In this document: positions 15,437-62,393 of the stretch, one piece after another
How positions within the stretch are numbered: the first letter of the stretch is position 1
How the letters are laid out: every line of letters begins with the position of its first letter
Made by a program: the position numbers and the translations under genes
The notes under the pieces: model-generated
Database searches by the model: none
Told to the model about the DNA's origin: nothing
What the model saw: only the letters and a program-made list of their open reading frames with translations
Assembly (NCBI RefSeq): GCF_040954835.1
Contig: NC_090709.1
Coordinates: 46,260,490 to 46,324,489 of the forward strand
Direction: 5' to 3'
DNA length: 64,000 bases
From: Lepisosteus oculatus
Taxonomy: Eukaryota; Chordata; Actinopteri; Semionotiformes; Lepisosteidae

Positions 15437-15838
15437 TTCTGAATTACGGGAAGAATGTTTCTCTAATCCCAGAGTATCTGTCAAAGTGCAGTAGGAAGTA
15501 CACCTCTGTCTCTATTTCTCCCCGCTGGCAGTGGGAGCACAGCCTGTAATCTCTGGGCAGCCAGGTCTGCCTGTGTCGCCCAGTTTCTATGGCCAGGTTG
15601 TAGTCACTGAGCCTGTACTTCGTCAGGGTCTGTTTCTGTTTGTTATTTTTTATTTTGGTCAAATATTCAGCTAGTGTGTATTGTCTGTTTAAGGTTCTGT
15701 AGCATTCCAGTTTATGTTGTGTTTGTGTGTGTGTGTCCCAGTGTGTGAGATATTGCTGTTTGATCTGTGCTGTGATGTGGTTGAGTCTGGGTTGTGGTGC
15801 TCTAGCAGTGCTGTCCTGAGGCTGGTTAGTGTCGGTGT
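15437..15838 (-). pseudogene. C-terminal fragment of another LINE ORF2
   Basis: The minus-strand frame ends with LAIETGRHRQTWLPRDYRLC, then SHCQRGEIETEVYFLLHF and IRETFFP. This is the terminal domain, with a degenerate CxxC...H...C zinc finger, found at the end of many fish LINE ORF2 proteins. The second C of the usual HC pair is F here. The fragment runs straight into intron 6 of gene copy 0 at about 15838, so it marks the breakpoint that removed the front of that copy. Confidence 0.6.
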
Positions 15839-15962
15839 CACTCACTGCGAGTGTGATCTCAGCAGAGTCTCTGTGCTCTTGGGACACTTGACTCACCTGT
15901 CTCTCTCTTTCTCTCCCTGTGCTGTCCCTCTCCTGCCCCCTCTCTCCCTCCTCGGACTCCAG

Positions 15963-16641
15963 CTGGAGGAGGTCCAATCACCACCTCCTGTGAGACAGAA
16001 GAAAAAGAAGGTGGGTAATGCTCTGATCCTCTCTTTACTCCTGTCCAGTGTCCAGTCAGTGTCCAGTCAGTGTGTCTGTATGAACCCCTCTCTCTCTCAG
16101 TGCAGTGTTCATGTACTGGAGTGTCCAGTCAGTGTGTCTGTATGAACCCCTCTCTCTCTCAGTGCAGTGTTCATGTACTGGAGTGTCCAGTCATGTGTCT
16201 GTATGAACCCCTCTCTCTCTCAGTGCAGTGTTCATGTCCTGGAGTGTCTAGTCAGTGTGTCTGTATGAACCCCTCTCTCTCTCAGTGCAGTGTTCATGTC
16301 CTGGAGTGTCCAGTCAGTGTGTCTGTATGAACCCCTCTCTCTCTCAGTGCAGTGTTCATGTACTGGAGTGTCCAGTCATGTGTCTGTATGAACCCCTCTC
16401 TCTCTCAGTGCAGTGTTCATGTCCTGGAGTGTCCAGTCCGACTCTTAACGTGACTCTCCTGTCTCTGCTTCAGAAGCGCTGGTGCGTCTTTTTAAACTCC
16501 CTGAGCTGCGTGTCGGTGGAGACAGATGATCAGGACGAGCCGATGGAGAAGGCGGAGACCGTGGGTCAGGAGAGGAAGAGCGAGGGAGAGGAGGAGCAGG
16601 CTGCCGGGAAGGACAAGAAGAGGAAGAGGAGGTGCAAGTGA
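15963..16641 (+). pseudogene. Array gene copy 0: exons 7 and 8 only
   Basis: Exon 7 is 15963-16010 (16 codons, LEEVQSPPPVRQKKKK) between CTCCAG and GTGGGT. Exon 8 is 16474-16641 (55 codons plus TGA), starting KRWCVFLNSLSCVSVE and ending GKDKKRKRRCK. Both are in phase 0 and intact, but exons 1-6 are replaced by a LINE fragment upstream of 15838. The 3' UTR runs to the AATAAA at 17293-17298. As it lacks promoter and start codon it is a 5'-truncated copy, unless the missing part lies elsewhere in a rearranged locus. Confidence 0.75.
16055..16440 (+). repeat. Intron 7 minisatellite, copy 0
   Basis: About six units of a 62 bp repeat (TCAGTGTGTCTGTATGAACC, CCTCTCTCTCTCAGTGCAGT, GTTCATGTACTGGAGTGTCC). 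Confidence 0.9.
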
Positions 16642-16795
16642 GCAGACAGGGGGGCACCGCCCGGTCGTGTCTGTGATTCAAGGAGGAGTCTCCTCTTGCT
16701 GTTTGATGTCATGGTGACGTCTGTGTCTGTGTCCCTCACACCTGCAATAACAATATTCTTTCCAGGTTCCTTTCCTGGTTCTGTGCCTGCTAAGA

Positions 16796-17265
16796 TCTGG
16801 ACTGGACTGGACTGGACTGGACTGGAGCTGAGGGACGCCAGACTGGACTGCACTGAAGCTGAGGGGCCCCAGACTGGACTGGACAGGAGCTGAGGGACAC
16901 CAGACTGGACTGGACTGGAGCCTAGGGACATCAGACTGGACTGGACCGGAGCTGAGAGACACCAGACTGGACTGCACCGGAGCTGAGAGACACCAGACTG
17001 GACTGGACTGGAGCTGAGGGGCCCCAGACTGGACTGGACCGGAGCTGAGAGACACCAGACTGGACTGGACTGGAGCTGAGGGACCCCAGACTGTGCTGGA
17101 CCGAAGCTGAGGGCCCCAGTCTGCGCTGCACAGAAGCTGAGGGACCCCAGTCTGTGCTGGACCGAAGCTGAGGGACCCCAGTCTGGACTGCACTGGAGCT
17201 GAGGGGCCCCAAACTGGACTGGACTGAAGCTGAGGGACCCCAGACACCAGTCTGGACTGAAGCTT
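16796..17265 (+). repeat. 3' UTR minisatellite, copy 0
   Basis: A GGACT pentamer run leads into imperfect 31-34 bp units (GCTGAGGGACCCCAGACTGG). It lies after the stop codon and before the AATAAA, so it should be part of the mature transcript. Confidence 0.85.
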
Positions 17266-17292
17266 GTAATTTTTGTTCTTTTGTTAAGCATC

Positions 17293-17298
17293 AATAAA
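17293..17298 (+). terminator. Poly(A) signal, copy 0
   Basis: AATAAA in the shared context TTTTGTTAAGCATCAATAAA, which recurs after copies 0, 1 and 5 (GGATC variant after copy 4). Confidence 0.7.
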
Positions 17299-17356
17299 AA
17301 TTTTAAAAATAAAATCTGTTTAGCTTTTGGTTTTTTCCCTCCCCCCCCCCCCCAAA

Positions 17357-17780
17357 GTTGCTGCTGGGAGAGGTGTGAGTGGGGCCAGCAGGGGGCGCTC
17401 TCACCCTGTGGTCTGTGTGGGTCCTTATGCCCCAGTATAGTGAGGGGGGACACTGGACTGTAAACAGGCGCCGTCCTTCGGATGAGACGTCAAACCGAGG
17501 TCCTGACTCTCTGTGCTCATTAACAATCCCGGGGTGTCTCTGGAGAAGAGTAGGGGTGTTACCCCAGTGTCCTGGCCTGATTCCCCCCCTGGTCTTGACC
17601 CATCATGGCCTCCTAATCACCCCCCCCTCTCTGAACTGGCTCCATCCCTCTGCTCTCCTCCCCACTGAGAGCTGCTGTGTGCTGAGCGGACTGGAGCATC
17701 ATCCAGGTGGGGGCTGCACACTGGGGGGACTGGAGGGGATCCCCCTGACCTGGGAAGAGCTCTGAGTGGAGAGTCCAGAC
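17357..17780 (+). mobile_element. 0.42 kb interspersed repeat (SINE/MITE-like)
   Basis: Starts GTTGCTGCTGGGAGAGGTGT and ends GAGTGGAGAGTCCAGACTTATT before an ATT-rich tail. A complete reverse copy outside the array units (28985-29425) shows it is a dispersed element, not part of the gene. It follows the poly(A) site in each array unit, so it was present before the array expanded. Confidence 0.8.
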
Positions 17781-18159
17781 TTATTAATTATTATTATTAT
17801 TCGTGCTGCACTGGGCTTCAGTCCTGGTAGTGAGAGGGGGACTCTGTGATCAGGACAGATACTTATGACTGTATAATAATACACGATAGAAATGGAAACA
17901 GGGTAGCGCTGTAGTCTCTTCGAAACGTTTTGAACTGCCAGAAGAAGTTTTCACAACCCGGACTCGTGAAGGTACAGGTCTTCTCCCTTCGTCCAGAGCA
18001 AGGTGTATCGTGTCCTGGTGATTTTAATGTCGCGTTTCTGCCTTATTAGAGAGAGGCACTGAACTTTGGGGAACGTGACATCCACCCAGTATTACTAGTA
18101 GGTTGATAAATATAAATGTTTTTTTTTCCCCCCGTATTATACCTTGCGAAATATAATAT

Positions 18160-18345
18160 GTGTGTGTGTCCTGTGATGGACTGGTGTCCTGTCCAGGGTG
18201 TGTGAGTGTGTGTGTCTGTGTGTCCTGTGATGGACAGATGGTACCCAGCCTGGACACCCATGAGACACTGGCTGTGATGGACTGGTATCCTGTGAAGGAC
18301 TGGTGTCCTGTCCAGGGTGTGTGTGTGTCCTGTGATGGACTGGTG
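18160..18345 (+). repeat. Intergenic GT-rich minisatellite
   Basis: Units of about 46 bp: GTCCTGTGATGGACTGGTGT, CCTGTCCAGGGTGTGTGAGT plus a GT run. The same unit recurs in every intergenic spacer. Confidence 0.9.
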
Positions 18346-18359
18346 GATCACAATATTAA

Positions 18360-19312
18360 TTCTCCTCCTTGATTCCCTCCTTCATCGCCAGAGTGAAAGC
18401 GGGACACGGCAGTAAAAGCTCAGCCCTGCGGGTGGTGGTCCTCTCGGCCACACGGGGGCGCTGTGGCCCCACGGGGGGGGGTTATGTTCAAGTCCCGCTG
18501 GGAATCGCACCGACGCGGTGGAGTTCGTGAACGTCCCAGACAACAAGAAAACGAGAGAGAGAAAAAAGGTCGTTTTCGGGGTTCAAGAAGCAACCCCGAG
18601 ATTCAGGGAGTTTCCCCGCTGAGCTTACTCTGCCGAAAACACGCAGGTTTTATTTTTTTTCCCGTGCCCCCCCTCACACAGGCCGTTTCTGTAGCGTGAA
18701 GTTGGTTTTTTTTGCGCGGCTGTCGGTGAGGGGCGAAATTGTATTTATTTTTTCCCACGGTTTGAAACAGAAACGGCCGGGTGGTGTTGTAGAGAGGTCG
18801 ACGTGCCTGGTTTTCCTCGTGTGCGAAGCCCGGTTTTTTTTTCTGGGGGGGGGGTCGTGAGGTCCCACGCAGCGCTCGGAAAAGAAAATGGCGTTTCTTT
18901 TCCCCGCAGGACGGGGGGGGTACCCGTGTTTTTTGGACGTGGCGTGGCCCGAAATTTACGCCCTTGGGCGCTAGAGGGGGGTGGAGGTTGGTCTTTCTTT
19001 GATTTGGGGTTCGGGGGGGTGCTAATTTCACTGAACCCCACCCCACGGAAACCCGTGTTGGACGTGGGGGTGCTGAATGCGCCCTCGACGTGATTTTGTC
19101 TTTAAATTCAAGTGCAGCTTTTGTAACCCTTGGGCCGGAAACACCTGGACCCGTTTCCCCTGCCTGTCCGAGGTGGCGACTACCGGGGTCGTACAGGGAC
19201 ACCCGGCTGGCCGCCGAGAGTTGGAAAAATAAAATGTCCACCCAAAAAAAAACAACCGTGAAAAATGTCAGCCATTTTTGTTTCGCGGCCGAGCCGTGAG
19301 CGCGTTTGGGGC
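18360..19312 (+). other. Conserved GC-rich 5' flank of copy 1
   Basis: About 0.95 kb repeated upstream of copies 2-5 (35550, 41460, 46745, 56045). It has long G runs, a CACGGGGGCGCTG segment, a GCGCTAGAGG motif and no convincing ORF. Probably distal promoter or spacer DNA. Confidence 0.6.
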
Positions 19313-19532
19313 GACGTCACGGTGGCGTCACAATGAGCCGCCTGACGTCACAGAGCGGCGGATTCTAGCGGGGGGCGGCGCCGGAGCCCCGTGAGCTCAG
19401 AGGAGCGAAGAGAGAAGAGGAGGAAAGCGCTATATAGTCTTTTCTAAATACGTGTTTCTTCCAATAAAGTTACTTCGACTTAGATTGTTAGTTTCAGCTT
19501 CAGAATCGCTCTTCAGAATCCCCGTGAAATCG
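19313..19532 (+). promoter_or_regulatory. Promoter and noncoding exon 1, copy 1
   Basis: CRE sites GACGTCAC (19313-19320) and TGACGTCA (19343-19350) precede a GC box region and TATATAG at 19431-19437. About 95 bases later the donor AAATCG|GTAAGT ends a noncoding first exon at 19532. The long form, with the GCGGCCGAGCCGTGAGCGCG block just upstream, is shared with copies 4 and 5. CREB/ATF regulation is an inference from the sites. Confidence 0.65.
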
Positions 19533-19639
19533 GTAAGTCAAAAGCGCCGCTGGCGAGAAATAACAAAATAAGTGGAGAAATAAGTTGTTTTTTTTACCGT
19601 TACTCCACTCTTATGGGTGTGATCGTGCTATAAAAAGAT

Positions 19640-20010
19640 ATTGAGAGGAGGTGCACCTCTACACAGAGAGTGGTGGGGGTGGGGAACAAGCTGCCCAGCC
19701 CTGTGGTTGAAGCCGATACCCTGGCTTCTCTCCAGACACAGCTGAGTGAGCTCCTCCAGTCAGGACAGGAGGCTCTTCTGTACACCGAGGGTGGCGGGGG
19801 TGTGGAACAAAGCTGATACCCTGGCTCCTGTCCAGACAGAGCTGGGTGAGCTCCTCCAGTCAGGACAGGAGGCTCTTTTGTACACAGAGGGTGGCGGGGG
19901 TGTGGAACAAAGCTGATACCCTGGCTTCTCTCAGGACACAGCTGGGTGAGGTCCTCCAGTCAGGACAGGAGGCTCTTCTGTACACAGAGGGGGGCGGGGG
20001 TGGGGAACAA
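19640..20010 (+). repeat. Intron 1 repeat cluster, copy 1
   Basis: Three to four units of about 110 bp (TACACAGAGGGTGGCGGGGG, GGAACAA, GATACCCTGGCTTCTCTC). They are tandem pieces of a dispersed repeat whose fuller single copy is at 30985-31155. Confidence 0.8.
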
Positions 20011-20087
20011 GCCGCCCAGCTGTGTGGCTCCGCCCCCTCCCCCTCCCCTCCCTTCCCCTCTGTGACTCTGCTTGTCTCGGCAGGACG

Positions 20088-23000
20088 ATGGACCGACAGA
20101 GATGCCGCACGGCCGTGCGCGGTCGCAGCAGGACCCAGGCCCGGCGAGGCGTCGTAAGTCCACCCCTCCCGCCCGCCGTCCACAGGGTCGCAGGTCCATT
20201 ATAGACTTCTGAGAGCACAGATTGCCTCTGAACGTCCCAGAGTCTCACTGGACACACTGTAGAGACTACCCAAGGCCCCTAGTCTCGACACGACTGGGCT
20301 GGGCTATTTGGTCAGAGCTGTCTCGGAGATGGGCTGTTTGGCGTCTTCACAGGTCACACCGGTCAGGCCGAACCCGGACTGGCAGCGGGAGAGGTCCCGG
20401 CCCAAGTCCCGGTGCTTTTCCGTAAGTCTGACCCGGTCGCCTTCCGCGAGACTGGACCGGCCGCCCTGTGGTGGGCCCGGTGCCCCACATCTACCCTACA
20501 GCTCCCCCCACTGACCCCTAAACTCCCGATACCCTACAGCTCCCCACACTGACCCCTAAACTCCCGATACCCTACAGCTCCCCACACTGACCCCTAAACT
20601 CCCGATACCCTACAGCTCCCCACACTGACCCCTAAACTCCCGATACCCTACAGCTCCCCGCACTGACCCCTAAACTCCCGATACCCTACAGCTCCCCACA
20701 CTGACCCCTAAACTCCCGATACCCTACAGCTCCCTACACTGACCCCTAAACTCCCGATACCCTATAGCTCCCCACTCTGACTCCTAAACTCCCGATACCC
20801 TACAGCTCCCCACACTGACCCCTAAACTCCCGATACCCTACAGCTCCCCTCTCTGACCCCTAAACTCCCGATACCCTACAGCTCCCCACACCGACCCCTA
20901 AACTCCCGATACCCTACAGCTCCCCACACTGACCCCTAAACTCCCGATACCCTACAGCTCCCCGCACTGACCCCTAAACTCCCGATACCCTACAGCTCCC
21001 TACACTGACCCCTAAACTCCCGATACCCTATAGCTCCCCACTCTGACTCCTAAACTCCCGATACCCTACAGCTCCCCACACTGACCCCTAAACTCCCGAA
21101 ACCCTACAGCTCCCCACACTGACCCCTAAACTCCCGATACCCTACAGCTCCCCACACTGACCCCTAAACTCCCGAAACCCTACAGCTCCCCACACTGACC
21201 CCTAAACTCCCGATACCGTACAGCTCCCCACACTGACCCCTAAACTCCCGATACCCTACAGCTCCCCGCACTGACCCCTAAACTCCCGATACCCTACAGC
21301 TCCCCGCACTGACCCCTAAACTCCCGATACCCTATAGCTCCCCACTCTGACTCCTAAACTCCCGATACCCTACAGCTCCCCACACTGACCCCTAAACTCC
21401 CGATACCCTACAGCTCCCCACACTGACCCCTAAACTCCCGAAACCCTACAGCTCCCCACACTGACCCCTAAACTCCCGATACCCTACAGCTCCCCACACT
21501 GACCCCTAAACTCCCGAAACCCTTCAGCTCCGCACACTGACCCCCACAGTCCTGATGGCCGAGAGGTCTCTGCTTGCTGTAGTAATTGAGTGAGCTCTGT
21601 GGACCTGACCTCTGTCTTGTGTCCTCGTTTCCAGCGTCTCCTAGTGGTCCGGCATTTCACACGACCTGAAGGTGAGATCTGGGGAGGAGACAGAGCACCC
21701 CCTAACACCCCTGAGCTGGGTTACAGGGTAAGACAGCTTCTTACTGTTGGACACACCTGTCCACACTCTTACTGGACACACTGGACACACTCGCCTGTCC
21801 AGACTCTTACTGGATACACTGGACACACTCACCTGTCCAGACTCTTACTGGACACACTGGACAAACTCACCTGTCCACACTCACCTGTCCAGACTCTTAC
21901 TGGACACACTCTCACTGGACACACTGTCCACACTCACCTGTCCAGACTCTCACTGGACACACTGTACACACTCACCTGTCCACACTCACTGGACACACTG
22001 TACACACTCACCTGTCCACACTCTCACTGGACACACTGTACACACTCACCTGTCCAGACTCTCACTGGACACACTGGACATACTCACCTGTCCAGACTCT
22101 TACTGGACACACTGTACACACTCACCTGTCCACACTCTTACTGGACGCACTGTACACACTCACCTGTCCACACTCTCACTGGACACACTGTACACGCTCA
22201 CCTGTCCACACTCTTACTGGACACACTCACCTGTCCAGGCGTAGTCTCTGCTCCTCATCCCCCCTGCGTTGTGTCTCCCACCCCGCTGGACAGAATCCTG
22301 TGGTGTCTTCGTGTCTCCCCGAGCTCGTCCAGAAGCTGGAGAGGGCGGCCGAGCTGCAGCTGGAGCTCCCGGGGTCGCCTGGCTCGTCCCGCTCGGGCTC
22401 GCCCGACTCCTTCCGCTCGGTGTCCCCCCCCTCCTCGCCCGAGAGCCCCCTCCGCCCCCCGCCCCCGGCCCCCCCCTCCGGCCCCCTCAGGCCCCTGCCC
22501 GCCCCGCCCCGCCGCCCCCCCTTCATCCCCGCCATGCCCCTCGAGCCCCCCCTGCTGCCCGGGGCGGTGCCCCTGCCCCTGCCCCCACCCGTCCTGCCCC
22601 CGTCTGTCCGTCCATCTGTCCGTCTGTCCATCTATCCTTCAGTCCATCTGTCCCTCTGTCCATCTGTCCTTTTCTCTATCCTGTCCTTCTGTCTTTCTGT
22701 CCTTTTCTGTGTCCATCTGTCTTTCTCTCCTTTTCTGTCTTTCTATCCATCACTCTATCTATCCTTTTCTCTGTCCATCTGTCCTTCTGTCCATCTGTCT
22801 TTCTGTCCTTTTTTCTGTCTTTCTGTCCTTTTCTCTGTCTTTTTGTCCATCTGTACTTCTCTCTTTCTGTCTTTCTGTCCTTCTGTCTGAGTCTCTCTTT
22901 TTCTCTGTGTCTGTCCCTCTCTCCCTGTCTCTTTCCATGTCTCCCTGCTCTCTGTTTGTCCTGCGTTGTCCCAGCTGGGTCTGTCTCCCTGTGTCTCTCC

Positions 23001-24395
23001 GTGTGTCTCCCTGCTCTCTGTCTCTCCTGCGTTGGCCCAGCTGGGTCTCTCTCCCTGTGTCTCTCCGTGTGTCTCCCTACCTGTCTCTCTGTCTGTCCTG
23101 CGTTGTCCCAGCTAGGTCTCCCTCCCTCCTCTCTCTCTCCGTGTGTCTCCCTGCTCTCTGTCTGTCCTGCGTTGTCCCAGCTGGGTCTCCCTCCCTCCTC
23201 TCTCTCTCCGTGTGTCTCCCTGCTCTCTGTCTGTCCTGCGTTGTCCCAGCTGGGCCTCTCTCCCTGTGTCTCTCCGTGTGTCTCCCTGCTCTCTGTCTGT
23301 CCTGCGTTGTCCCAGCCAGGTCTCTCTCCCTGTGTCTCTCCGTGTGTCTCCCTGCTCTCTGTCTGTCCTGCGTTGTCCCAGCTGGGCCTGTCTCCTCTGC
23401 TCTCTGACTTCAGCTCTGTTCGCCGATGTCCTGCCAGCCCGTCTCTCTCTCAGCCTGTCTCTTGACTTGCAGGAAGAAGAGGAGGTGGAGACAGCTCTTC
23501 CGGCAGGAGAGAGGAAGGAGGTCAGTGCTGGTCCCACCCTGCCCCCTGTCCTGTCTGTGGTGGAGTTTCGCCGTCTTGTCTGTCCCTGGGTCTCAGTGTC
23601 TCTCTCTCTTTCAGCCCTGTCTGTCAGTGTCTCTCTCCTCCTCCTCTCTGTCCTCAGTGTGTCTCTCTCCTCCTCTCTGTCCTGTGGTGTCCAGTGGGTC
23701 AGTATTAGTGGGCTACACCCAGGCTCACTCACTGCGAGTGTGGTCTCAGCAGAGTCTCTGTGCTCTTGGGACACTTGACTCACCTGTCTCTCTCTTTCTC
23801 TCCCTGTGCTGTCCCTCTCCTGCCCCCTCTCTCCCTCCTCGGACTCCAGCTGGAGGAGGTCCAATCACCACCTCCTCTGAGACAGCAGAAAAAGAAGGTG
23901 GGTAATGCTCTGATCCTCTCTTTACTCCTGTCTAGTGTCCAGTCAGTGTGTCTGTATGAACCCCTCTCTCTCTTAGTGTAGTGTTCATGTCCTGGAGTGT
24001 CCAGTCAGTGTGTCTGTATGAACCCCTCTCTCTCTCAGTGCAGTGTTCATGTACTGGAGTGTCCAGTCAGTGTGTGTGTATGAACCCCTCTCTCTCTCAG
24101 TGCAGTGTTCATGTCCTGGAGTGTCCAGTCAGTGTGTCTGTATGAACCCCTCTCTCTCTCAGTGCAGTGTTCATGTCCTGGAGTGTCCAGTCCGACTCTT
24201 AACGTGACTCTCCTGTCTCTGCTTCAGAAGCGCCGATGCGTCTTTTTGATGTCCCTGAGCTGCGTGTCGGTGGAGACAGAAGATCAGGACGAGCCGATGG
24301 AGGTGGGGGAGACCGTTGCTCAGGAGAGGAAGAGCGAGGGAGAAGAGGAGCAGGCTGCCGGGAAGGACAAGAAGAGGAAGAGGAGGGGCAGGTGA
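20088..24395 (+). CDS. Array gene copy 1 (exon 5 donor lost)
   Basis: Coding exons: 2, 20088-20153; 3, 20353-20421; 4, 21635-21727; 5, from 22294, preserved to about 22601; 6, 23473-23520; 7, 23850-23897; 8, 24228-24395. All boundaries have AG acceptors and GT donors in phase 0 except exon 5. There a deletion of about 96 bp, relative to copy 4, removes the last codons (through MSDE) and the GC donor. The frame runs open into the intronic TGTC repeat. The other exons are intact (exon 2 begins MDRQRCRTAVRGRSRT; exon 8 begins KRRCVFLMSLSCVSVE). A protein would need a cryptic donor, so this copy is probably impaired. The product is not recognised; the basic clusters suggest a nuclear protein. The 3' UTR ends at AATAAA 25404-25409. 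Confidence 0.65.
20495..21545 (+). repeat. Intron 3 minisatellite, copy 1
   Basis: About 28 units of 37 bp (CCCCTAAACTCCCGATACCC, TACAGCTCCCCACACTGA). Far longer than in the other copies (7-10 units). Confidence 0.95.
21770..22240 (+). repeat. Intron 4 minisatellite, copy 1
   Basis: Units of about 30 bp (ACTCTTACTGGACACACTGG, ACACACTCACCTGTCCAG). The same unit also occupies intron 2 of copies 2 to 5. Confidence 0.95.
22602..23400 (+). repeat. Intron 5 microsatellite and 66 bp minisatellite, copy 1
   Basis: A TGTC/TTTC-rich tract, then about seven units of 66 bp with the motif GTCCTGCGTTGTCCCAGCTG. Pyrimidine-rich on the coding strand; the long ORFs here are artefacts. Confidence 0.9.
23935..24195 (+). 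repeat. Intron 7 minisatellite, copy 1
   Basis: About four units of the 62 bp repeat described for copy 0. Confidence 0.9.
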
Positions 24396-24549
24396 GCAGA
24401 CAGGGGGGTGCCGCCCGGTCATGTCTGTGATTCAAGGAGGAGTCTCCTCTTGCTGTTTGATGTCATGGTGACGTCTGTGTCTATGTCCCTCACACCTGCA
24501 ATAACAATATACTTTCCAGGTTACTTTCCTGGTTCTGTGCCTGCTAAGA

Positions 24550-25385: not shown

Positions 25386-25403
25386 GAGCTTTTGTTAAGC
25401 ATC

Positions 25404-25409
25404 AATAAA
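25404..25409 (+). terminator. Poly(A) signal, copy 1
   Basis: AATAAA in the shared TTAAGCATC context. Confidence 0.7.
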
Positions 25410-25462
25410 TTTAAAAAAAAAAAAATCTGTTTAGCTTTTGGTTTCCCCCCCCCCCCCCCAAA

Positions 25463-28980: not shown

Positions 28981-28984
28981 GGGC

Positions 28985-51200: not shown

Positions 51201-54175
51201 TCTGTTCTTTTCTCTGTCCATCTGTCCTTCTGTCTTTCTGTCCGTCTGTCCGTCTATCCTTCTATCTTTCTATCCATCTGTCCTTCTGTCCTTTTCTCTG
51301 TCCATCTTTCCTTCTGTCCATCTGTCCCTTTCACTGTCCTTCTGTCTTTCTGTTCTTTTCTCTTTCCATCTGTCCTTCTGACTTTCTGTTCTTTTCTCTG
51401 TCCATCTGTCTGTCCGTCCATCTGTCTGTCTGTCCATCTGTCCCTCTGTCCTTCTGTCCTTTTCTCTGTCCATCTTTCCTTCTGTCCATCTGTCCCTTTC
51501 ACTGTCCTTCTGTCTTTCTGTTCTTTTCTCTGTCCATCTGTCCTTCTGACTTTCTGTTCTTTTCTCTGTCCATCTGTCCTTCAGTCCATCTGTCTTTCTG
51601 TCCTTTTCTCTCTTTCTGTCCATCAGTCCATCTGTCCTTTTCTCTGTCTTTTTGTCCGTCTGTACTTCTCTCTTTCTGTCTTTCTGTCCTTCTGTCTGAG
51701 TCTCTGTGTTTGTCCCTCTCTCCCTGTCTCTCTCCCTGTGTCTCTCCGTGTGTCTCCCTGCTCTCTGTCTGTCCTGCGTTGTCCCAGCTGGGTCTCCCTC
51801 CCTGTGTCTCCCTGCTCTCTGTCTGTCCTGCGTTGTCCCAGCTGGGCCTGTCTCCACGGCTCTCTGCCTTCAGCTCTGTTCGCCGATGTCCCGCCAGCCC
51901 GTCTCTCTCTCAGCCTGTCTCTTGACTTGCAGGAGGAAGAGGAGGTGGAGACAGCTCCTCCGGCAGGAGAGAGGAAGGAGGTCAGTGCTGGTCCCACCCT
52001 GCCCCCTGTCCTGTCTGTGGTGGAGTTTCGCCGTCTTGTCTGTCCCTGGGTCTCAGTGTCTCTCTCTCTTTCAGCCCTGTCTGTCAGTGTCTCTCTCTCG
52101 GCCTGCTGTCTGTCTGTCCCTGCCTCTCTGTCTCTCTCTCTTTCAGCCCTGTCTGTCAGTGTCTCTCTCTCGGCCTGCTGTCTCCCTGTCCCTGGGTCTC
52201 AGTGTCTCTCTCTCTTTCAGCCCTGTCTGTCAGTGTCTCTCTCCTCCTCCTCTCTGTCCTCAGTGTGTCTCTCTCCTCCTCCTCTCTGTCCTGTGGTGTC
52301 CAGGCAGTGTGTCTCTCTCCTCCTCCTCCTCTCTGTCCTGTGGTGTCCAGGCAGTGTGTCTCTCTCCTCCTCCTCCTCTCTGTCCTGTGGTGTCCAGTGG
52401 GTCGGTATTAGTGGGCTACACCCAGGCTCACTCCCTGCGAGTGTGATCTCAGCAGAGTCTCTGTACTCTTGGTACACTTGACTCACCTGTCTCTGTCTTT
52501 CTCTCCCTGTGCTGTCCCTCTCCTGCCCCCTCTCTCCCTCCTCGGACTCCAGCTGGAGGAGGTCCAATCACCACCTCCTGTGAGACAGAAGAAAAAGAAG
52601 GTGGGTGATGCTCTGATCCTCTCTTTACTCCTGTCCAGTGTCCAGTGTCTGTATGAACCCTTCTCTCTCTCTCAGTGCAGTGTTCATGTCCTGGAGTGTC
52701 CAGTCGGTGTGTCTGTATGAACCCCCCTCTCTCTCAGTGCAGTGTTCATGTCCTGGAGTGTCCAGTCAGTGTGTCTGTATGAACCCCTCTCTCTCTCAGT
52801 GCAGTGTTCATGTCCTGGAGTGTCCAGTCAGTGTGTCTGTATGAACCCCTCTCTCTCTCAGTGCAGTGTTCATGTCCTGGAGTGTCCAGTCAGTGTGTCT
52901 GTATGAACCCCTCTCTCTCTCTCTCAGTGCAGTGTTCATGTACTGGAGTGTCCAGTCAGTGTGTCTGTATGAACCCCTCTCTCTCTCTCAGTGCAGTGTT
53001 CATGTCCTGGAGTGTCCAGTCAGTGTGTGTGTATGAACCCCTCTTTCTCTCAGTGCAGTGTTCATGTACTGGAGTGTCCAGTCAGTGTGTCTGTGTGAAC
53101 CCCTCTCTCTCTCTCTCAGTGCAGTGTTCATGTACTGGAGTGTCCAGTCAGTGTGTCTGTGTGAACCCCTCTCTCTCTCAGTGCAGTGTTCATGTCCTGG
53201 AGTGTCCAGTCAGTGTGTCTGTGTGAACCCCTCTCTCTCTCTCTCTCTTAGTGCAGTGTTCATGTACTGGAGTGTCCAGTCAGTGTGTGTGTATGAACCC
53301 CTCTCTCTCTCAGTGCAGTGTTCATGTACTGGAGTGTCCAGTCAGTGTGTCTGTATGAACCCCTCTCTCTCTCAGTGCAGTGTTCATGTACTGGAGTGTC
53401 CAGTCAGTCAGTGTTTCTGTGTGAACCCCTCTCTCTCAGTGCAGTGTTCATGTACTGGAGTGTCCAGTCAGTGTGTCTGTATGAACCCCTCTCTCTCTCA
53501 GTGCAGTGTTCATGTACTGGAGTGTCCAGTCAGTGTGTCTGTATGAACCCCTCTCTCTCTCTCTCAGTGCAGTGTTCATGTCCTGGAGTGTCCAGTCAGT
53601 GTGTCTGTATGAACCCCTCTCTCTCTCTCAGTGCAGTGTTCATGTACTGGAGTGTCCAGTCAGTGTGTCTGTATGAACCCCTCTCTCTCTCTCAGTGCAG
53701 TGTTCATGTACTGGAGTGTCCAGTCAGTGTGTCTGTATGAACCCCTCTCTCTCTCAGTGCAGTGTTCATGTACTGGAGTGTCCAGTCAGTGTGTCTGTGT
53801 GAACCCCTCTCTCTCTCTCTGTGCAGTGTTAATGTACTGGAGTGTCCAGTCAGTGTGTCTGTATGAACCCCTCTCTCTCTCAGTGCAGTGTTCATGTCCT
53901 GGAGTGTCCAGTCAGTGTGTCTGTATGAACCCCTCTCTCTCTCAGTGCAGTGTTCATGTACTGGAGTGTCCAGTCCGACTCTTAACGTGACTCTCCTGTC
54001 TCTGCTTCAGAAGCGCTGGTGCGCCCTTCTTAACTCCCTGAGCTGCGTGTCGGTGGAGACAGAAGACCAGGACGAGCCGATGGAGGTGGCGACCGTAGCT
54101 CAGGAGAGGAAGAGCGAGGGAGAGGAGGAGCTGGCTGCCGGGAAGGACAAGAGGAGGAAGAGGAGGTGCAGGTGA
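48207..54175 (+). CDS. Array gene copy 4, apparently intact
   Basis: Exons: 2, 48207-48272; 3, 49318-49386; 4, 49914-50006; 5, 50352-50741; 6, 51933-51980; 7, 52553-52600; 8, 54011-54175. Total 292 codons, every junction in phase 0, no stop. The start is the ATG 4 bases after the CTCGGCAG acceptor, in GACGATGG. Order of parts: basic N-terminus (MDRQRCRTAVRGRSRTRARR), RPNPDWQRERSRPKSRCF, RHFSRPEGEIWGG, a short helix-like LPELVQKLERAAEL, a Ser/Pro tract, polyproline-rich stretch, acidic EEEEVET, KKKK and a C-terminal RRKRRCR. I recognise no family; nuclear location is inferred from basic clusters. Exon 8 differs: VF becomes AL and one codon (E of the usual VAETVAQ) is missing. Exon 5 ends at a GC donor, GAG|GCAAGT. 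Confidence 0.75.
48605..49225 (+). repeat. Intron 2 minisatellite, copy 4
   Basis: About twenty 30 bp units. Confidence 0.95.
49447..49825 (+). repeat. Intron 3 minisatellite, copy 4
   Basis: About ten 37 bp units. Confidence 0.95.
50035..50300 (+). repeat. Intron 4 minisatellite, copy 4
   Basis: About eight 30 bp units. Confidence 0.95.
50755..51855 (+). repeat. Intron 5 microsatellite and higher-order repeat, copy 4
   Basis: A TGTC tract, then a block of about 170-185 bp (TTTTCTCTGTCCATCTTTCC ... CCTTCTGACTTTCTGTTCTT) repeated three to four times, then two 66 bp units. Confidence 0.9.
52640..53978 (+). repeat. Intron 7 minisatellite, copy 4 (expanded)
   Basis: About 21 units of 62 bp, against two to six in the other copies. 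It contains many CAG acceptor-like sites after pyrimidine runs (CTCTCTCTCTCAG). Confidence 0.95.
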
Positions 54176-54329
54176 GCAGACAGGGGGGCGCCGCCTGGTC
54201 GTGTCTGTGATTCAAGGAGGAGTCTCCTCTTGCTGTTTGATGTCATGGTGACGTCTGTGTCTGTGTCCCTCACACCTGCAATAACAATATTCTTTCCAGG
54301 TTCCTTTCCTGGTTCTGTGCCGGCTAAGA

Positions 54330-54930
54330 TCTGGACTGGACTGGACTGGACTGGACTGGACTGGACTGGACTGGACTGGACTGGAGCTGAGGGACACCAG
54401 ACGGGACTGGACAGGAGCCTAGGGACACCAGACTGGACTGGACCGGAGCTGAGAGACACCAGACTGGACTGGACTGGAGCTGAGGGACCCCAGACTGTGC
54501 TGGACCGAAGCTGAGGGACCCCAGTCTGGACTGAAGCTGAGGGACACCAGACTGTGCTGGACCGAAGCTGAGGGACCCCAGTCTGTGCTGGACCGAAGCT
54601 GAGGGACCCCAGACTGTGCTGGACCGAAGCTGAGGGACCCCAGTCTGGACCGAAGCTGAGGGACACCAGACTGTGCTGGACCGAAGCTGAGGGACCCCAG
54701 ACTGGACTGGACTGGAGCTGAGGGGCCCCAGACTGGACTGGACTGGAGCTGAGGGGCCCCAGACTGGACTGGACTGGAGCTGAGGTTCCCCAGACTGTGC
54801 TGGACCGAAGCTGAGGGACCCCAGTCTGGACCGAAGCTGAGGGACCCCAGTCTGGACTGCACTGGAGCTGAGGGACACCAGACTGGACTGGAGCTGAGAG
54901 ACACCAGACTGGACTGGACTGAAGCTTGTA
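54330..54930 (+). repeat. 3' UTR minisatellite, copy 4
   Basis: A run of about nine GGACT pentamers, then about 18 units of 31-34 bp. Confidence 0.85.
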
Positions 54931-54954
54931 ATTTTTATTCTTTTGTTAAGGATC

Positions 54955-54960
54955 AATAAA
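54955..54960 (+). terminator. Poly(A) signal, copy 4
   Basis: AATAAA after TTTTGTTAAGGATC, followed by an A-rich run. Confidence 0.7.
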
Positions 54961-55016
54961 AAAAAAATTAAAAAAAATCTGTTTAGCTTTTGGTTTTTTC
55001 CCTCCCCCCCCCCAAG

Positions 55017-55445
55017 GCTGCTGCTGGGAGAGGTGTGAGTGGGGCCAGCAGGGGGCGCTCTCACCCTGCGGTCTGTGTGGGTCCTGATGCCCCAGTATAG
55101 TGACGGGGGACACTGGACTGTAAACAGGCGCTGTCCTTCGGATGAGACGTCAAACCGAGGTCCTGACTCTCTGTGGTCATTAACAATCCCGGGGTGTTTC
55201 TGGAGAAGAGTAGGGGTGTTACCCCAGTGTCCTGGCCTGATTCCCCCCCTGGTCTTGACCCATCATGGCCTCCTAATCACCCCCCCCTCTCTGAACTGGC
55301 TCCATCCCTCTGCTCTCCTCCCCACTGAGAGCTGCTGTGTGCTGAGCGGACTGGAGCATCATCCAGGTGGGGGCTGCACACTGGGGGGACTGGAGGGGAT
55401 CCCCCTGACCTGGGAAGAGCTCTGAGTGGAGGGTCCAGACTTATT
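55017..55445 (+). mobile_element. 0.42 kb interspersed repeat
   Basis: Same element as at 17357. Confidence 0.8.
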
Positions 55446-55744
55446 AATTATTATTATTATTCGTGCTGCACTGGGCTCCTGTCCTGGCAGTGAGAGGGGG
55501 ACTCTGTGATTAGTACAGATACGTATGACTATATAATAATACACGATAGAAATGGAACACAGGGTAGCGCTGTAGTCTCTTCGAAACGTTTTGAACTGCC
55601 AGAAGAAGTTTTCACAACCCGGACTCGTGAAGGTACAGGTCTTCTCCCATCGTCCGGAGCAAGGTGTATCGTGTCCTGGTGACTTCTCCCGTTTCGAATG
55701 GAGTTTAATGTTGCGTTTCTACTTTATTAGAGAGAGGCACTGAA

Positions 55745-56035
55745 CATCCTGTGATGGACTGGTGTCCTGTCCAGGGTGTATGAGTCTGTGTGTGTCCTGT
55801 GATGGACTGCTGTCCTGTCCAGGGTGTATGAGTCTGTGTATGTCCTGTGATGGGCTGGTGTCCTGTCCAGGGTGTGTGTGTGTCCTGTGATGGACTGGTG
55901 TCCTGTCCAGGATGTGTGAGTGTGTGTGTGTCCTGTGATGGACTGGTGTCCTGTCCAGGGTGTGTGAGGGTGTGTGTGTCCAGTGATGGACTGCTGTCCT
56001 GTCCAGGGTGTGTGTGTGTCCTGTGATGGACTGGT
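55745..56035 (+). repeat. Intergenic GT-rich minisatellite
   Basis: About six 46 bp units. Confidence 0.9.
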
Positions 56036-56984
56036 GGATCACAATATTAATTCTCCTCCTTGATTCCCTCCTTCATCGCCAGAGTGAAAGCGGAACACGG
56101 CAGTAAAAGCTCAGCCTGCGGGTGGTGGTCCTCTCGGCCACACGGGGGCGCTGTGTCCCCACGGGGGGGTTATGTTCAAGTCCCGCTGGGAATCGCACCG
56201 ACGCGGTGGAGTTCGTGAACGTCCCAGACACCAAGAAAACGAGAGAGAGAGAAAAAAGGTCGTTTTCGGGGTTCAAGAAGCAACCCCGAGATTCAGGGAG
56301 TTTCCCCGCTGAGTTTACTCTGCAGAAAACACGCAGGTTTTATTTTTTCCCGTGCCCCCCCTCACACAGGCCGTTTCTGTAGCGTGAAGTTGTGTTTTTT
56401 TGCGCGGCGGTCGGTGAGGGGCGAAATTGTATTAATTTTTTTCCCACGGTTTGAAACAGAAACAGCCGGGTGGTGTTGTAGAGAGGTCGACGTGCCTGGT
56501 TTTCCTCGTCTGCGAAGCCCGTTTTTTTTGGGGGGGGGGGTCGTGAGGTCCCACGCAGCGCTCGGAAAAGAAAATGCCGTCTCTTTTCCCCGCAGGACGG
56601 GGGGGAACCCGTGTTTTTTGGACGTGGCGTGGCCCAAAATTTCCGCCCTTGGGCGCTAGAGGTGGGTGGAGGTTGGTCTTTCTTTGATTTGGGGGGGGGG
56701 GGGTCTAATTTCACTGAACCAAACCCCACGGAAACCCGTGTTGGACGTGGGGGTGCTGAATGCGCCCTCGACGTGATTTTGTCTTTAAATTCAAGTGCAG
56801 CTTTTGTCACCCTTGGGCCGGAAACAGCTGGACCCGTTTCCCCTGCCTGTCCGAGGTGGCGACTACCGGGGTCGTACAGGGACACCCGGCTGGCCGCCGA
56901 GAGTTGGAAAAATAAAATGTCCACCCAAAAAAAAACAGCAACCGTGAAAAATGTCGGCCATTTTTGTTTCGCGGCCGAGCCGTG

Positions 56985-57218
56985 AGCGCGTCGGGGGCGA
57001 CGTCACGGTGGCGTCACAATGAGCCGCCTGACGTCACAGAGCGGCGGATTCTAGCGGGGGGCGGCGCCGGAGCCCCATGAGCTCAGAGGAGTGAAGAGAG
57101 AAGAGGAGGAAAGCGCTATATAGTCTTTTCTAAACACGTGTTTCTTCCAATAAAGTTACTTCGACTTAGATCGTTAGTTTCATCTTCAGAATCGCTTTTC
57201 AGAATCCCCGTGAAATCG
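56985..57218 (+). promoter_or_regulatory. Promoter and noncoding exon 1, copy 5
   Basis: Long form, closest to copy 1: CGACGTCAC at 57000, TGACGTCA at about 57029, TATATAG at 57117-57123 and donor AAATCG|GTAAGT after 57218. Confidence 0.65.
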
Positions 57219-57329
57219 GTAAGTCAGTCAAAAGTGCCGCTGGTGAGAAATAACAAAATAAGTGGAGAAATAATAATACGTTTTTTTTACCGTTACTCAA
57301 CTCTTATGGGTGTGATCGTGCTGTAAAAA

Positions 57330-57575
57330 GATATTGAGAGGAGGTGCACCTCTACACACAGAGTGGTGGGGGTGGGGAACAAAGCCAATACCCTGGCTTC
57401 TCTCCAGACACAGCTGGGTGAGCTCCTCCAGTCAGGACAGGAGGCTCTACTGTACACAGAGAGTGGCGGGGGTGCGGAACAAAGCTGATACCCTGGCTTC
57501 TCTCAGGACACAGCTGGGTGAGGTCCTCCAGTCAGGACAGGAGGCTCTTCTGTACACAGAGGAGGGCGGGGGTGG
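57330..57575 (+). repeat. Intron 1 repeat cluster, copy 5
   Basis: Two to three 110 bp units of the GGAACAA-type repeat. Confidence 0.8.
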
Positions 57576-57648
57576 GGAACAAGCCGCCCAGCTGTGTGGC
57601 TCCGCCCCCTCCCCTCCCCTCTGTGACTCTGCTTGTCTCGGCAGGACG

Positions 57649-60600
57649 ATGGACCGACAGAGATGCCTCACGGCCGTGCGCGGTCGCAGCAGGACCCGGG
57701 CCCGGCGAGGCGTCGTAAGTCCACCCCTCCCGCCCACCATCCAGCGTCCAGCGTCCAGCCCTCCTCCGACTGGCCTCTCCGCCCCCAGCAGCGCTCGCTG
57801 TATTATAATAATAATAATAATAAACTTCACTGATAGAGCACCTTTCATACACATAGCAGCGCAAAGTGCTTGACAGACCAGGTCTCACGGTAACACCTCC
57901 AGACGAGGAGAGACACTTCCAGTGGTGATCTTGACTGAGGACACGCCTCGGCTCAAGAGACAGGGTCTCAGGTCCATTATAGCCTTCTGAGAGCACAGAT
58001 TGCCTCTGAACGTCCCAGACTCTTACTGGACACACTGTAGAGACTCACCTGTCCAGACTCTCACTGGACACACTGTACACACTCACCTGTCCACACTCTC
58101 ACTGGACACACTGTACACACTCACCTGTCCACACTCTCACCGGACACACTGTAGAGACTGCCCAAGGCCCCTAGTCTCGACACGACTGGGCTGGGCTATG
58201 TGGTCAGAGCTGTCTCGGAGATGGGCTGTTTGGCGTCTTCACAGGTCACACCGGTCAGGCCGAACCCGGACTGGCAGCGGGAGAGGTCCCGGCCCAAGTC
58301 CCGGTGCTTTTCCGTAAGTCTGACCCGATCGCCATCCGCGAGACTGGACCGGCCGCCCTGTGGTGGGCCCGGTGCCCCACATCTACCCTACAGCTCCCCC
58401 CACTGACCCCTAAACTCCCGATACCCTACAGCTCCCCACACTGACCCCTAAACTCCCGATACCCTACAGCTCCCCACACTGACCCCTAAACTCCCGATAC
58501 CCTACAGCTCTCCACTCTGACCCCTAAACTCCTGATACCCTACAGCCCCCCACACTGACCCCTAAACTCCCGATACCCTACAGCTCCCCACACTGACCCC
58601 TAAACTCCCGATACCCTACAGCTCCCCACTCTGACCCCCACAGTCCTGATGGCCGAGAGGTCTCTGCTTGCTGTAGTGATTGAGTGAGCTCTGTGGACCT
58701 GACCTCTGTCTTGTGTCCTCGTTTCCAGCGTCTCCTAGTGGTCCGGCATTTCACACGACCTGAAGGTGAGATCTGGGGAGGAGACAGAGCACCCCCTAAC
58801 ACCCCTGAGCTGGGTTACAGGGTAAGACAGCTTCTTACTGTTGGACACACCTGTCCACACTCTTACTGGACACACTGGACACACTCGCCTGTCCGGACTC
58901 TTACTGGACACACTGGACACACTCACCTGTCCGGACTCTTACTGGACACACTGGACACACTCGCCTGTCCAGACTCTTACTGGACACACTGGACACACTC
59001 GCCTGTCCAGACTCTTACTGGACACACTGTACACACTCACCTGTCCACACTCTCACTGGACACACTGTACACACTCACCTGTCCAGGCGTAATCTCTGCT
59101 CCTCATCCCCCCTGCGTTGTGTCTCCCCCTCTCCCCGCTGGACAGAATCCTGTGGTGTCTTCGTGTCTCCCCGAGCTCGTCCAGAAGCTGGAGAGGGCGG
59201 CCGAGCTGCAGCTGGAGCTCCCGGGGTCACCCGGCTCGTCCCGCTCGAGCTCGCCCGACTCGTTCCGCTCGGTGTCCCCCCCCTCCTCGCCCGAGAGCCC
59301 CCTCCGCTCCCCGCCCCCGGCCCCCCCCTCCGGCACCCTCCGGCCCCTGACCGCCCCGCCCCGCCGCCCCCCCTTCCTCGCCGCCATGCCCCTCGAGCCC
59401 CCCCTGCTGCCCGGGGCGGTGCCCCTGCCCCTGCCCCCACCCGTCCTGCCCCCCATCGCCCGCCCGGCCCCGCCAGGCCCCGCCTGGGGCTCCCCGGTGG
59501 GGAGGGCAAGGAGAGAGGCGGAGATGTCTGACGAGGCAAGTGGGGCAGAGTCTGTCCGCCCATCTGTCCTTCTGTCCGTCTATCCTTCAGTCCATCTGTC
59601 CCTCTGTCCATCTGTCCTTTTCTCTGTCCTGTCCTTCTGTCCTTTTCTCTGTCCTTCTGTCCTTCTGTCTTTCTGTTCTTTTCTCTGTCCTTCTGTCCAT
59701 CTGTCTTTCTGTCTTTTTCTGTCTTTCTATCCATCACTCTATCTATCCTTTTCTCTGTCCATCTGTCCTTCTGTCCATCTGTCTTTCTGTCCTTTTCTGT
59801 CTTTCTGTCCTTTTCTCTGTCTTTTTGTCCATCTGTACTTCTCTCTTTCTGTCTTTCTGTCCTTCTGTCTGAGTCTCTCTTTTTCTCTGTGTCTGTCCCT
59901 CTCTCCCTGTCTCTCTCCCTGTGTCTTTCCATGTCTCCCTGCTCTCTGTCTGTCCTGCGTTGTCCCAGCTGGGTCTGTCTCCCTGTGTCTCTCCGTGTGT
60001 CCCCCTGCTCTCTGTCTGTCCTGCGTCGTCCCAGCCGGGTCTCTCTCCCTGTGTCTCTCCGTGTGTCTCCCTGCCTGTCTCTCTGTCTGTCCTGCGTTGT
60101 CCCAGCTAGGTCTCCCTCCCTCCTCTCTCTCTCCGTGTGTCTCCCTGCTCTCTGTCTGTCCTGCGTTGTCCCAGCTGGGTCTCTCTCCCTGTGTCTCTCC
60201 GTGTGTCTCCCTGCTCTCTGTCTGTCCTGCGTTGTCCCAGCTAGGTCTCCCTCCCTCCTCTCTCTCTCCGTGTGTCTCCCTGCTCTCTGTATGTCCTGCG
60301 TTGTCCCAGCTGGGTCTCTCTCCCTGTGTCTCTCCGTGTGTCTCCCTGTCTGTCTCTCTGTCTGTCCTGCGTTGTCCCAGCTGGGCCTGTCTCCTCTGCT
60401 CTCTGACTTCAGCTCTGTTCGCCGATGTCCCGCCAGCCCGTCTCTCTCTCAGCCTGTCTCTTGACTTGCAGGATGAAGAGGAGGTGGAGACAGCTTTTCC
60501 GGCAGGAGAGAGGAAGGAGGTCAGTGCTGGTCCCACCCTGCCCCCTGTCCTGTCTGTGGTGGAGTTTTGCCGTCTTGTCTGTCCCTGGGTCTCAGTGTCT

Positions 60601-61464
60601 CTCTCTCTTTCAGCCCTGTCTGTCAGTGTCTCTCTCGTCCTGCTGTCTGCCTGTCCCTGCCTCTCTGTCTCTCTCTCTTTCAGCCCTGTCTGTCAGTGTC
60701 TCTCTCCTCCTCCTCTCTGTCCTCAGTGTGTCTCTCTCCTCCTCTCTGTCCTGTGGTTTCCAGTGGGTCAGTATTAGTGGGCTACACCCAGGCTCACTCA
60801 CTGCGAGTGTGATCTCAGCAGAGTCTCTGTGCTCTTGGGACACTTGACTCACCTGTCTCTCTCTTTCTCTCCCTGTGCTGTCCCTCTCCTGCCCCCTCTC
60901 TCCCTCTTTGGACTCCAGCTGGAGGAGGTCCAATCACCACCTCCTGTGAGACAGAAGAAAAAGAAGGTGGGTAATGCTCTGATCCTCTCTTTACTCCTGT
61001 CCAGTGTCCAGTCAGTGTGTGTGTATGAACCCCTCTCTCTCTCAGTGTAGTGTTCATGTACTGGAGTGTCCAGTCAGTGTGTCTGTATGAACCCCTCTCT
61101 CTCTCAGTGCAGTGTTCATGTACTGGATTTTCCAGTCAGTGTGTCTGTATGAACCCCTCTCTCTCTCAGTGCAGTGTTCATGTACTGGAGTGTCCAGTCA
61201 GTGTGTCTGTATGAACCCCTCTCTCTCTCAGTGCAGTGTTCATGTACTGGAGTGTCCAGTCCGACTCTTAACGTGACTCTCCTGTCTCTGCTTCAGAAGC
61301 GCCGATGCGTCTTTTTGATGTCCCTGAGCTGCGTGTCGGTGGAGACAGAAGATCAGGACGAGCCGATGGAGGTGGCGGAGACCGTAGCTCAGGAGAGGAA
61401 GAGCGAGGGAGAGGAGGAGCTGGCTGCCGGGAAGGACAAGAGGAGGAAGAGGAGGTGCAGGTGA
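57649..61464 (+). CDS. Array gene copy 5, intact reference copy
   Basis: Exons: 2, 57649-57714; 3, 58245-58313; 4, 58729-58821; 5, 59146-59535; 6, 60472-60519; 7, 60919-60966; 8, 61297-61464. Lengths are 66, 69, 93, 390, 48, 48 and 168 bases, all phase 0, giving 293 residues plus stop. Exon 5 ends at GAG|GCAAGT. The protein starts MDRQRCLTAVRGRSRT and ends GKDKRRKRRCR. It has two basic candidate nuclear signals (RQKKKK and the C-terminus), an acidic patch (DEEEVET) and a central region of about 100 residues dominated by Pro and Ser. Exon 8 begins KRRCVFLMSLSC as in copy 1, against KRW...LNSLSC in copies 0, 3 and 4. No known family is recognised. It is the best copy for searches. Poly(A) signal AATAAA 62329-62334. 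Confidence 0.78.
58020..58150 (+). repeat. Intron 2 minisatellite, copy 5
   Basis: About four 30 bp units. Confidence 0.9.
58378..58640 (+). repeat. Intron 3 minisatellite, copy 5
   Basis: About seven 37 bp units. Confidence 0.95.
58850..59085 (+). repeat. Intron 4 minisatellite, copy 5
   Basis: About seven 30 bp units. Confidence 0.95.
59545..60390 (+). repeat. Intron 5 microsatellite/minisatellite, copy 5
   Basis: TGTC tract and about seven 66 bp units, alternating between two subtypes (GCTGGGTCTCTCTCCCTGTG and GCTAGGTCTCCCTCCCTCCT). Confidence 0.9.
61012..61265 (+). repeat. Intron 7 minisatellite, copy 5
   Basis: About four 62 bp units. Confidence 0.9.
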
Positions 61465-61619
61465 GCAGACAGGGGGGCGCCGCCCGGTCATGTCTGTGAT
61501 TCAAGGAGGAGTCTCCTCTTGCTGTTTGATGTCATGGTGACGTCTGTGTCTATGTCCCTCACACCTGCAATAACAATATTCTTTCCAGGTTCCTTTCCTG
61601 GTTCTGTGCCTGCTAACAT

Positions 61620-62310
61620 CTGGACTGGACTGGAGCTGAGGGACACCAGACGACTGGACTGGAGCCTAGGGACACCAGACTGGACTGGACCGGAGCTGAG
61701 AGGCACTAGACTGGACTGGAGCTGAGGGACACCAGACTGTGCTGGACCGAAGCTGAGGGACCCCAGTCTGGACTGAAGCTGAGGGACCCCAGACTGTGCT
61801 GGACCGAAGCTGAGGGACCCCAGTCTGTGCTGGACCGAAGCTGAGGGACCCCAGTCTGTGCTGGACTGAAGCTGAGAGACCCCAGACTGTGCTGGTCTGA
61901 AGCTGAGGGACCCCAGACTGGACTGCACTGGAGCTGAGGGACACCAGACTGGACTGGACTGGAGCTGAGGGGCCCCAGACTGGACTAGACTGGAGCTGAG
62001 GGGCCCCAGACTGGACTAGACTGGAGCTGAGAGGCCCCACACTGGATTGGACTGAAGCTGAGGGACCTCAGGCTGTGCTGTACCGAAGCTTAGGGACCCC
62101 AGTCTGGACCGAAGCTGAGGGACCCCAGTCTGGACCGAAGCTGAGGGACCCCAGACTGTGCTGGACCGAAGCTTAGGGACCCCAGTCTGGACCGAAGCTG
62201 AGGGACCCCAGTCTGTGCTGGACCGAAGCTGAGGGACCCCAGACTGTGCTGGACCGATGCTGAGGGACCCCAGTCTGGACTGAAGCTGAGGGACCCCAGT
62301 CTGGACTGAT
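61620..62310 (+). repeat. 3' UTR minisatellite, copy 5
   Basis: About 21 units of 31-34 bp with a very short pentamer run. Confidence 0.85.
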
Positions 62311-62328
62311 GACCTTTTGTTAAGCATC

Positions 62329-62334
62329 AATAAA
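62329..62334 (+). terminator. Poly(A) signal, copy 5
   Basis: AATAAA in the shared TTAAGCATC context. Confidence 0.7.
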
Positions 62335-62393
62335 TTTTTAAAAAAAAAAATCTGTTTAGCTTTTGGTTTTTTCCCTCCCCCCCCCCCCTAAGG

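Follow-up and report, generated by a model that had tools for sequence, protein, structure and literature searches.

The 64,000-nucleotide (nt) stretch of Lepisosteus oculatus DNA analysed here (the window; NCBI RefSeq assembly GCF_040954835.1, contig NC_090709.1, forward-strand positions 46,260,490 to 46,324,489) contains a tandem array of a unit of approximately 7.4 kb, which may carry a split gene for a basic protein. A reading made from the letters alone (the sequence-only reading) had placed the array at 15838-62345, and BLAST comparisons of the window with itself and with the fifth unit (unit 5) confirm it. Homology to unit 5 starts at 15838, direct head-to-tail copies continue to the right window edge, and the matching blocks, all direct, have 79-98% identity. 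The units are direct, head-to-tail and longer than 100 bp, as those of macrosatellites are. It comprises one 3' fragment (copy 0), five fuller copies (1-5) and the beginning of a further unit at 62.39 kb (positions are those of the window; "SINE-like", after short interspersed nuclear elements, is a label given in this analysis):

15838-18021 (+): copy 0, a 3' fragment only, forming the left array edge
18159-26112 (+): copy 1
26113-34602 (no strand): insert separating copies 1 and 2, about 8.5 kb long and for the most part unrelated, with short matches only (26833-27305 and 29118-29389)
34603-40289 (+): copy 2
40566-45360 (+): copy 3
45802-54960 (+): copy 4
55014-62388 (+): copy 5, the reference unit
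62390-64000 (+): first part of another unit, with a SINE-like block and a tandem repeat rich in GT, continuing beyond the window edge

The spacings between successive CpG-rich blocks are 17188, 5910, 5287 and 9306 nt; the first and longest includes the 8.5-kb insert.

Proposed gene model of copy 5

Copy 5 is the only copy in which the promoter-like block and all exons are free of evident damage. The seven phase-0 coding segments of the sequence-only reading were located in it at the expected boundaries; counted from the ATG, all are multiples of three (66, 69, 93, 390, 48, 48 and 168 nt including the stop), giving 293 amino acids. This seven-exon model looks incomplete at both ends. The model proposed here has nine exons, of which the coding ones are numbered 1 to 8:

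56040-57218 (+): CpG-rich promoter-like block, CpG observed-to-expected ratio 1.03
57147-57218 (+): putative first exon without coding sequence, its start a guess based on the TATA-like box; donor TCG/GTAAGT ranking 5th of 566
57645-57714 (+): exon 1, ATG at 57649
58245-58313 (+): exon 2
58729-58821 (+): exon 3 (GEIWGG), with a stronger donor inside it, after 58765
59146-59535 (+): exon 4, Pro/Ser-rich, GC donor after 59535
60472-60519 (+): exon 5
60919-60966 (+): exon 6
61297-61460 (+): exon 7, with its end revised to the donor CAG/GTGAGC
61589-61616 (+): coding part of exon 8, FLSWFCAC then TAA; acceptor the best of 80 between 61461 and 62350
61617-62350 (+): proposed 3' untranslated region, with a 31-bp minisatellite, an AATAAA (62329) and, after it, a run of A

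The acceptor upstream of the ATG is consistent with the 5' extension. At the 3' end, the TGA that had been taken to end the gene (61462-61464) is overlapped by the donor after 61460, which ranks first among the 566 candidates in 57100-61600, scored, as were all splice sites here, with simple donor and acceptor weights. Downstream lie an intron of 128 nt and exon 8, whose acceptor scores 6.9 (rank 29 of 331 gene-wide), and this stop is no longer regarded as the end of the gene. The terminal donor, intron 7 and exon 8 are largely conserved in copies 0, 1, 3, 4 and 5, differing by one donor base in copy 0 and by one residue each in copies 1 and 4. AATAAA follows exon 8 in copies 0, 1, 4 and 5, whilst in copy 3 the next AATAAA occurs only in the following unit.

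The consensus splice sites that had been claimed are borne out by the boundaries found in copy 5, with the exception of the exon 4 donor, which is GC and not GT. Everything between the segments had been described as repeat DNA; in copy 5, tandem repeats make up 61% of the intron sequence (2141 of 3488 bases) and cover 0 of the 981 exon bases tested, and the description does not extend to the remaining intron bases. The second-strongest donor of the unit (AAG/GTGAGA, 58766; rank 2 of 566) lies inside exon 3. An exon 3 cut short at 58765, without GEIWGG, was not adopted with the full exon 4, as this meets a TGA at 59529; joined to a shorter exon 4 (to 59496) it is open and is preferred by the chain search described below, and this combination is a possible alternative form.

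The promoter-like block of copy 5 contains a sequence resembling a cAMP response element (CRE-like), TGACGTCA, at 57029, with partial sites at 56999 and 57011, and a TATA-like box, CTATATAG, at 57116-57123. The CpG observed-to-expected ratio is 0.87-1.03 in the five promoter-like blocks of the array, compared to 0.44 in 57219-61588 and 0.31 in 55014-56040.

The predicted product of 301 amino acids is rich in Pro, Arg, Glu and Ser, basic (isoelectric point 9.57) and probably disordered, and carries basic clusters, such as KKKKKRR and KRRKRR, which we take to resemble nuclear import signals. In agreement with the sequence-only reading, which could match the protein to no family, none of the 293-, 76-, 301- and 300-residue forms matched a Pfam family, with E values of up to 10 admitted; NCBIfam also gave no family, which carries little weight as that collection covers prokaryotes. 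A sequence search of the PDB with the 293-residue form gave weak matches to the ribosomal protein eS30 over residues 17-68 (best E = 0.0073). The N-terminal 76 residues alone, picked after this first search, reached E = 0.00076, all 20 rows being eS30 and mutually related, and a two-row profile again found eS30 weakly, with an electron transfer flavoprotein and a phospholipase weaker still in the sequence and profile searches. The similarity is confined to weak phmmer and hmmsearch matches, and no Pfam profile places the product in eS30. Many of the rows are presumably fungal or protist by code or name, whereas a fish would be expected to have the vertebrate form. The match is judged to be a chance similarity of basic sequence; a reversed decoy gave 0 matches, so kinship may nonetheless exist. 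No relatives were found among 38 pattern matches in viral contigs. Limited searching of the literature, which does not establish absence from print, found no match for GEIWGG and, among the titles listed, none on this array.

State of the copies and coding signal

Copies 3, 4 and 5 are open throughout the exons present in each. In copy 4 every exon is open, giving 292 residues to the stop of the sequence-only reading and 300 with eight residues of exon 8:

48203-48272, 49318-49386, 49914-50006, 50352-50741, 51933-51980, 52553-52600, 54011-54171, 54300-54328 (+): exons 1-8 of copy 4

This copy keeps the TATA-like box (47805) and has an AATAAA at 54955, with a 52-nt deletion across the presumed start site. 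Copy 3 has exon 1 and exons 4-8, without exons 2 and 3, and its joined product is open to the same TAA as copy 5; its CpG-rich block has deletions of 121, 125, 101 and 17 nt, and its TATA-like box is kept (42175). In copy 1 the CpG-rich block and TATA-like box (19430) are kept and exons 1-3 are open, whilst exon 4 (from 22294) has lost its 3' end to the intron 4 repeat, with a 4-nt deletion upstream near the acceptor. Copy 2 has exons 1-5, with a TGA at the Trp position of GEIWGG in exon 3 and an exon 4 that is 81 nt shorter; exons 6-8 were looked for in this copy and not found. Its promoter-like block has a 101-nt deletion and a TATA-like box with one base changed. The 101-nt deletion is common to copies 2 and 3 (36387 and 42070), which hints at common descent or exchange. 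Copy 0 retains exon 6 (15963-16010), exon 7 (16474-16641), intron 7, exon 8, the minisatellite and a SINE-like block (17370-17999). The same seven segments had been said to recur from copy to copy, which stands for copies 1 (with exon 4 truncated), 4 and 5 and fails for the incomplete copies 0, 2 and 3; the open products claimed for copies 4 (292 residues) and 5 (293 residues) were both recovered, to which copy 3, with its remaining exons joined, can be added.

Coding ancestry rests on codon-position bias and on indels that keep the frame. Base composition by codon position in copy 5 gives a chi-squared of 46.7 (292 codons; GC content 0.68, 0.58 and 0.82 at positions 1 to 3, highest at the third and lowest at the second), which none of 800 length-matched control sets reaches (400 from unique DNA right of 15838, maximum 23.5; 400 from the whole window, maximum 39.3). 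Relative to copy 5, and setting aside the truncated exon 4 of copy 1, the exon indels are -3 (exon 7 of copy 4), -24 and -57 (exon 4 of copy 2, where another alignment divides the 57 differently, for an unchanged total of 81) and a cancelling +1 and -1 (exon 4 of copy 3). In the CpG-rich blocks, 5 of 39 indels are divisible by three (2/9, 1/8, 2/12 and 0/10; not independent).

On balance, we lean towards a real but unrecognised gene, which would encode a fast-changing basic protein and whose array would be undergoing birth and death. The proposal of a tandem array of a split gene with an unrecognised product is thereby upheld in part: codon bias, frame-keeping indels and gene-like flanks argue for it, whilst the model as proposed was incomplete, openness is weak evidence and there is little purifying selection. 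Several observations weigh against the birth-and-death reading, and are given here with the alternative to which each belongs.

One such alternative, which we regard as unlikely, is that the array is dead, the coding gene lying elsewhere and all copies here being pseudogenes, a few of them open by chance and youth. The truncated exon of copy 1, the stop and missing exons 6-8 of copy 2, the two exons absent from copy 3 and the presumed start site lost from copy 4 all favour it, as does a near-even spread of variable sites over codon positions (31, 27 and 31 of 294 each). All 96 distinct variants taken together include 31 synonymous ones against 26.4 expected (P = 0.17), the expectation being obtained by re-placing variants on sites of equal base and CpG state, with exon 4 of copy 1 left out from position 305 on and P uncorrected for multiple tests. 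This overall excess is not significant. By copy, synonymous variants are in excess in copy 4 (11 against 6.5, P = 0.035), which counts in favour of the birth-and-death reading, and in copy 2 (14 against 9.3, P = 0.049), near expectation in copy 1 (6 against 5.6, P = 0.50) and in deficit in copy 3 (8 against 11.5, P = 0.92) and copy 0 (3 against 3.5, P = 0.73). Over all variants three single steps make a stop, of which the one in exon 7 (copies 0, 3 and 4) is, by eye, half of a two-base change to Trp. The ratio of nonsynonymous to synonymous substitution rates (Nei-Gojobori) is 0.62 between copies 5 and 4 and spans 0.48-1.48 over 13 of the 15 copy pairs (copies 2 and 0 share no exon, and the rows of copy 1 include its misaligned exon 4 end). 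The exons are not conserved relative to their neighbours, because non-CpG sites vary more in exons (51/665) than in flanks (12/372; P = 0.004; copy 1 left out of exon 4). Selection between copies appears weak. Against a dead array, even the incomplete copies 2 and 3 have exon indels that preserve the frame, and copy 5 is free of evident damage in its promoter-like block, exons and 3' signals.

Less probable again is a non-coding macrosatellite, that is, repeat DNA with a CpG-rich block, whose supposed exons line up by chance where stops are rare. The joined exons of copy 5 have 0 stops in frame and 6, 6, 3, 3 and 5 in the remaining five frames, and when each exon is shuffled by dinucleotides, the probabilities of being open multiply to 0.003 over all exons. 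The window, however, holds 97 open reading frames (ORFs) of at least 120 residues on both strands. In stop-poor minisatellite DNA, one of 697 residues (58684-60777, +) spans exons 3-5 together with their introns and one of 605 residues (21590-23407, +) spans exon 3 and beyond, introns too. Openness is therefore weak evidence, since the DNA is poor in stops and shuffles score equally. In a search for chains of splice sites and open frame, 7 of 30 block shuffles at a penalty of 12, and 12 of 30 at a penalty of 14, reach the observed score. The best chain on the sense strand scores 38.0 against 29.4 for the reverse complement at the lower penalty, whilst at the higher one the reverse complement matches the sense strand (21.4 against 21.1). 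The nine-exon model nets 29.0 and 15.0 respectively. The best chains reuse its sites 59146, 60519, 60919-60966, 61297-61460 and 61589, and take the short exon 3 without GEIWGG and the shorter exon 4. Judged by this search, splice signals together with an open frame fall short of proving the model.

The codon-position signal has its own weaknesses. Most of it comes from exon 4 (chi-squared 33.8); without this exon the value is 19.4, which equals the maximum of the array-DNA control and exceeds the 95% point of the whole-window control (16.7), whose maximum is 35.0. The strongest bias is not in the model's joint frame, which ranks 39th of 729 relative-frame settings (best 62.9), or 51st of 243 without exon 4. 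Low-scoring tandem repeats occur in exon 4 of copies 1-4 (period 24 in copies 1, 3 and 4), not in copy 5, and these period-24 repeats could be a source of the period-three signal. CpG-rich stretches with no known gene also occur elsewhere in the window (26001-26400, 27401-27800 and 48201-48600). A non-coding macrosatellite is opposed by the bias lying above all of the control sets and by exon indels that keep the frame. On whether a unit holds a whole gene or its exons, the segments, codon bias and indels point in favour, the shuffles and joint-frame rank point against, and some units are incomplete.

A further alternative, highly improbable, equates the promoter-like block with a long terminal repeat (LTR) or another mobile-element promoter that drives or spread the unit. 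An AATAAA lies about 26 nt after the TATA-like box, an arrangement of many LTRs, but TG...CA ends were not recognised by eye (no formal test), and all matches to the body of the block in this window fall inside units.

Other features of the window

The DNA separating copies 1 and 2 contains a 200-residue ORF of a 30-residue repeat (a 90-bp tandem repeat with 98% match), directly downstream of CpG-rich DNA (31601-32400), with a best Pfam match of 26.7 bits against a cut-off of 26.8; it is possibly another gene. To the left of the array, ARAGORN identifies ten tRNAs with CpG-rich patches nearby, and the three tRNAs found by Rfam at the gathering threshold are among these ten. An endonuclease domain match (E = 3.8e-14) together with a sub-threshold zinc-knuckle match points to probable retrotransposon remains.

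184-11596: ten tRNAs
8004-10188 (+): probable retrotransposon remains
12049-13895: two abutting arrays of a 66-bp minisatellite, of 19.6 and 8.9 copies, containing ORFs
32549-33151 (+): 200-residue repeat ORF

Interpretation and known systems

If the array is one of birth and death, each unit would be a whole transcription unit, consisting of a CpG-rich promoter block with TATA- and CRE-like elements, a non-coding first exon, eight coding exons and a 3' minisatellite with AATAAA, and would be transcribed and spliced according to the nine-exon model. Unequal exchange, with minisatellites and other repeats as partners, would multiply copies and remove them, and the CpG-rich block would remain unmethylated in the germ line. 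The product might be a nuclear protein of the germ line that acts on chromatin or RNA; this is doubtful and the least certain part of the proposal. More tentative still is the broader picture of a hitherto unrecognised, lineage-restricted family of fast-changing nuclear proteins in a germline-active array, in which intron minisatellites largely spare the exons and copies turn over under conflict or dosage selection.

If expressed, the gene would represent a protein family absent from Pfam, and the array would be a case, outside mammals, of birth and death caught with complete beside broken copies. The analysis also shows how little an open frame and consensus splice sites can be relied on where DNA is packed with repeats.

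Among known systems, TSPY and cancer-testis arrays are ampliconic germline genes, tandem and fast-changing. The present array resembles them in both respects and differs in that germline expression is suggested here by the CpG-rich block alone. DUX4, USP17, NBPF10 and REXO1L1 belong to known families; unlike their arrays, the one described here has a predicted product for which no family was found and introns that are mostly minisatellite. A gene-bearing tandem unit, even with an unrecognised protein, would be of a known kind, because large tandem repeats can hold entire genes in each unit, with DUX4, USP17, NBPF10 and REXO1L1 named as highly multicopy in humans or other primates (PMC4063668). 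In form, it is these arrays of large tandem units that the present one most resembles.

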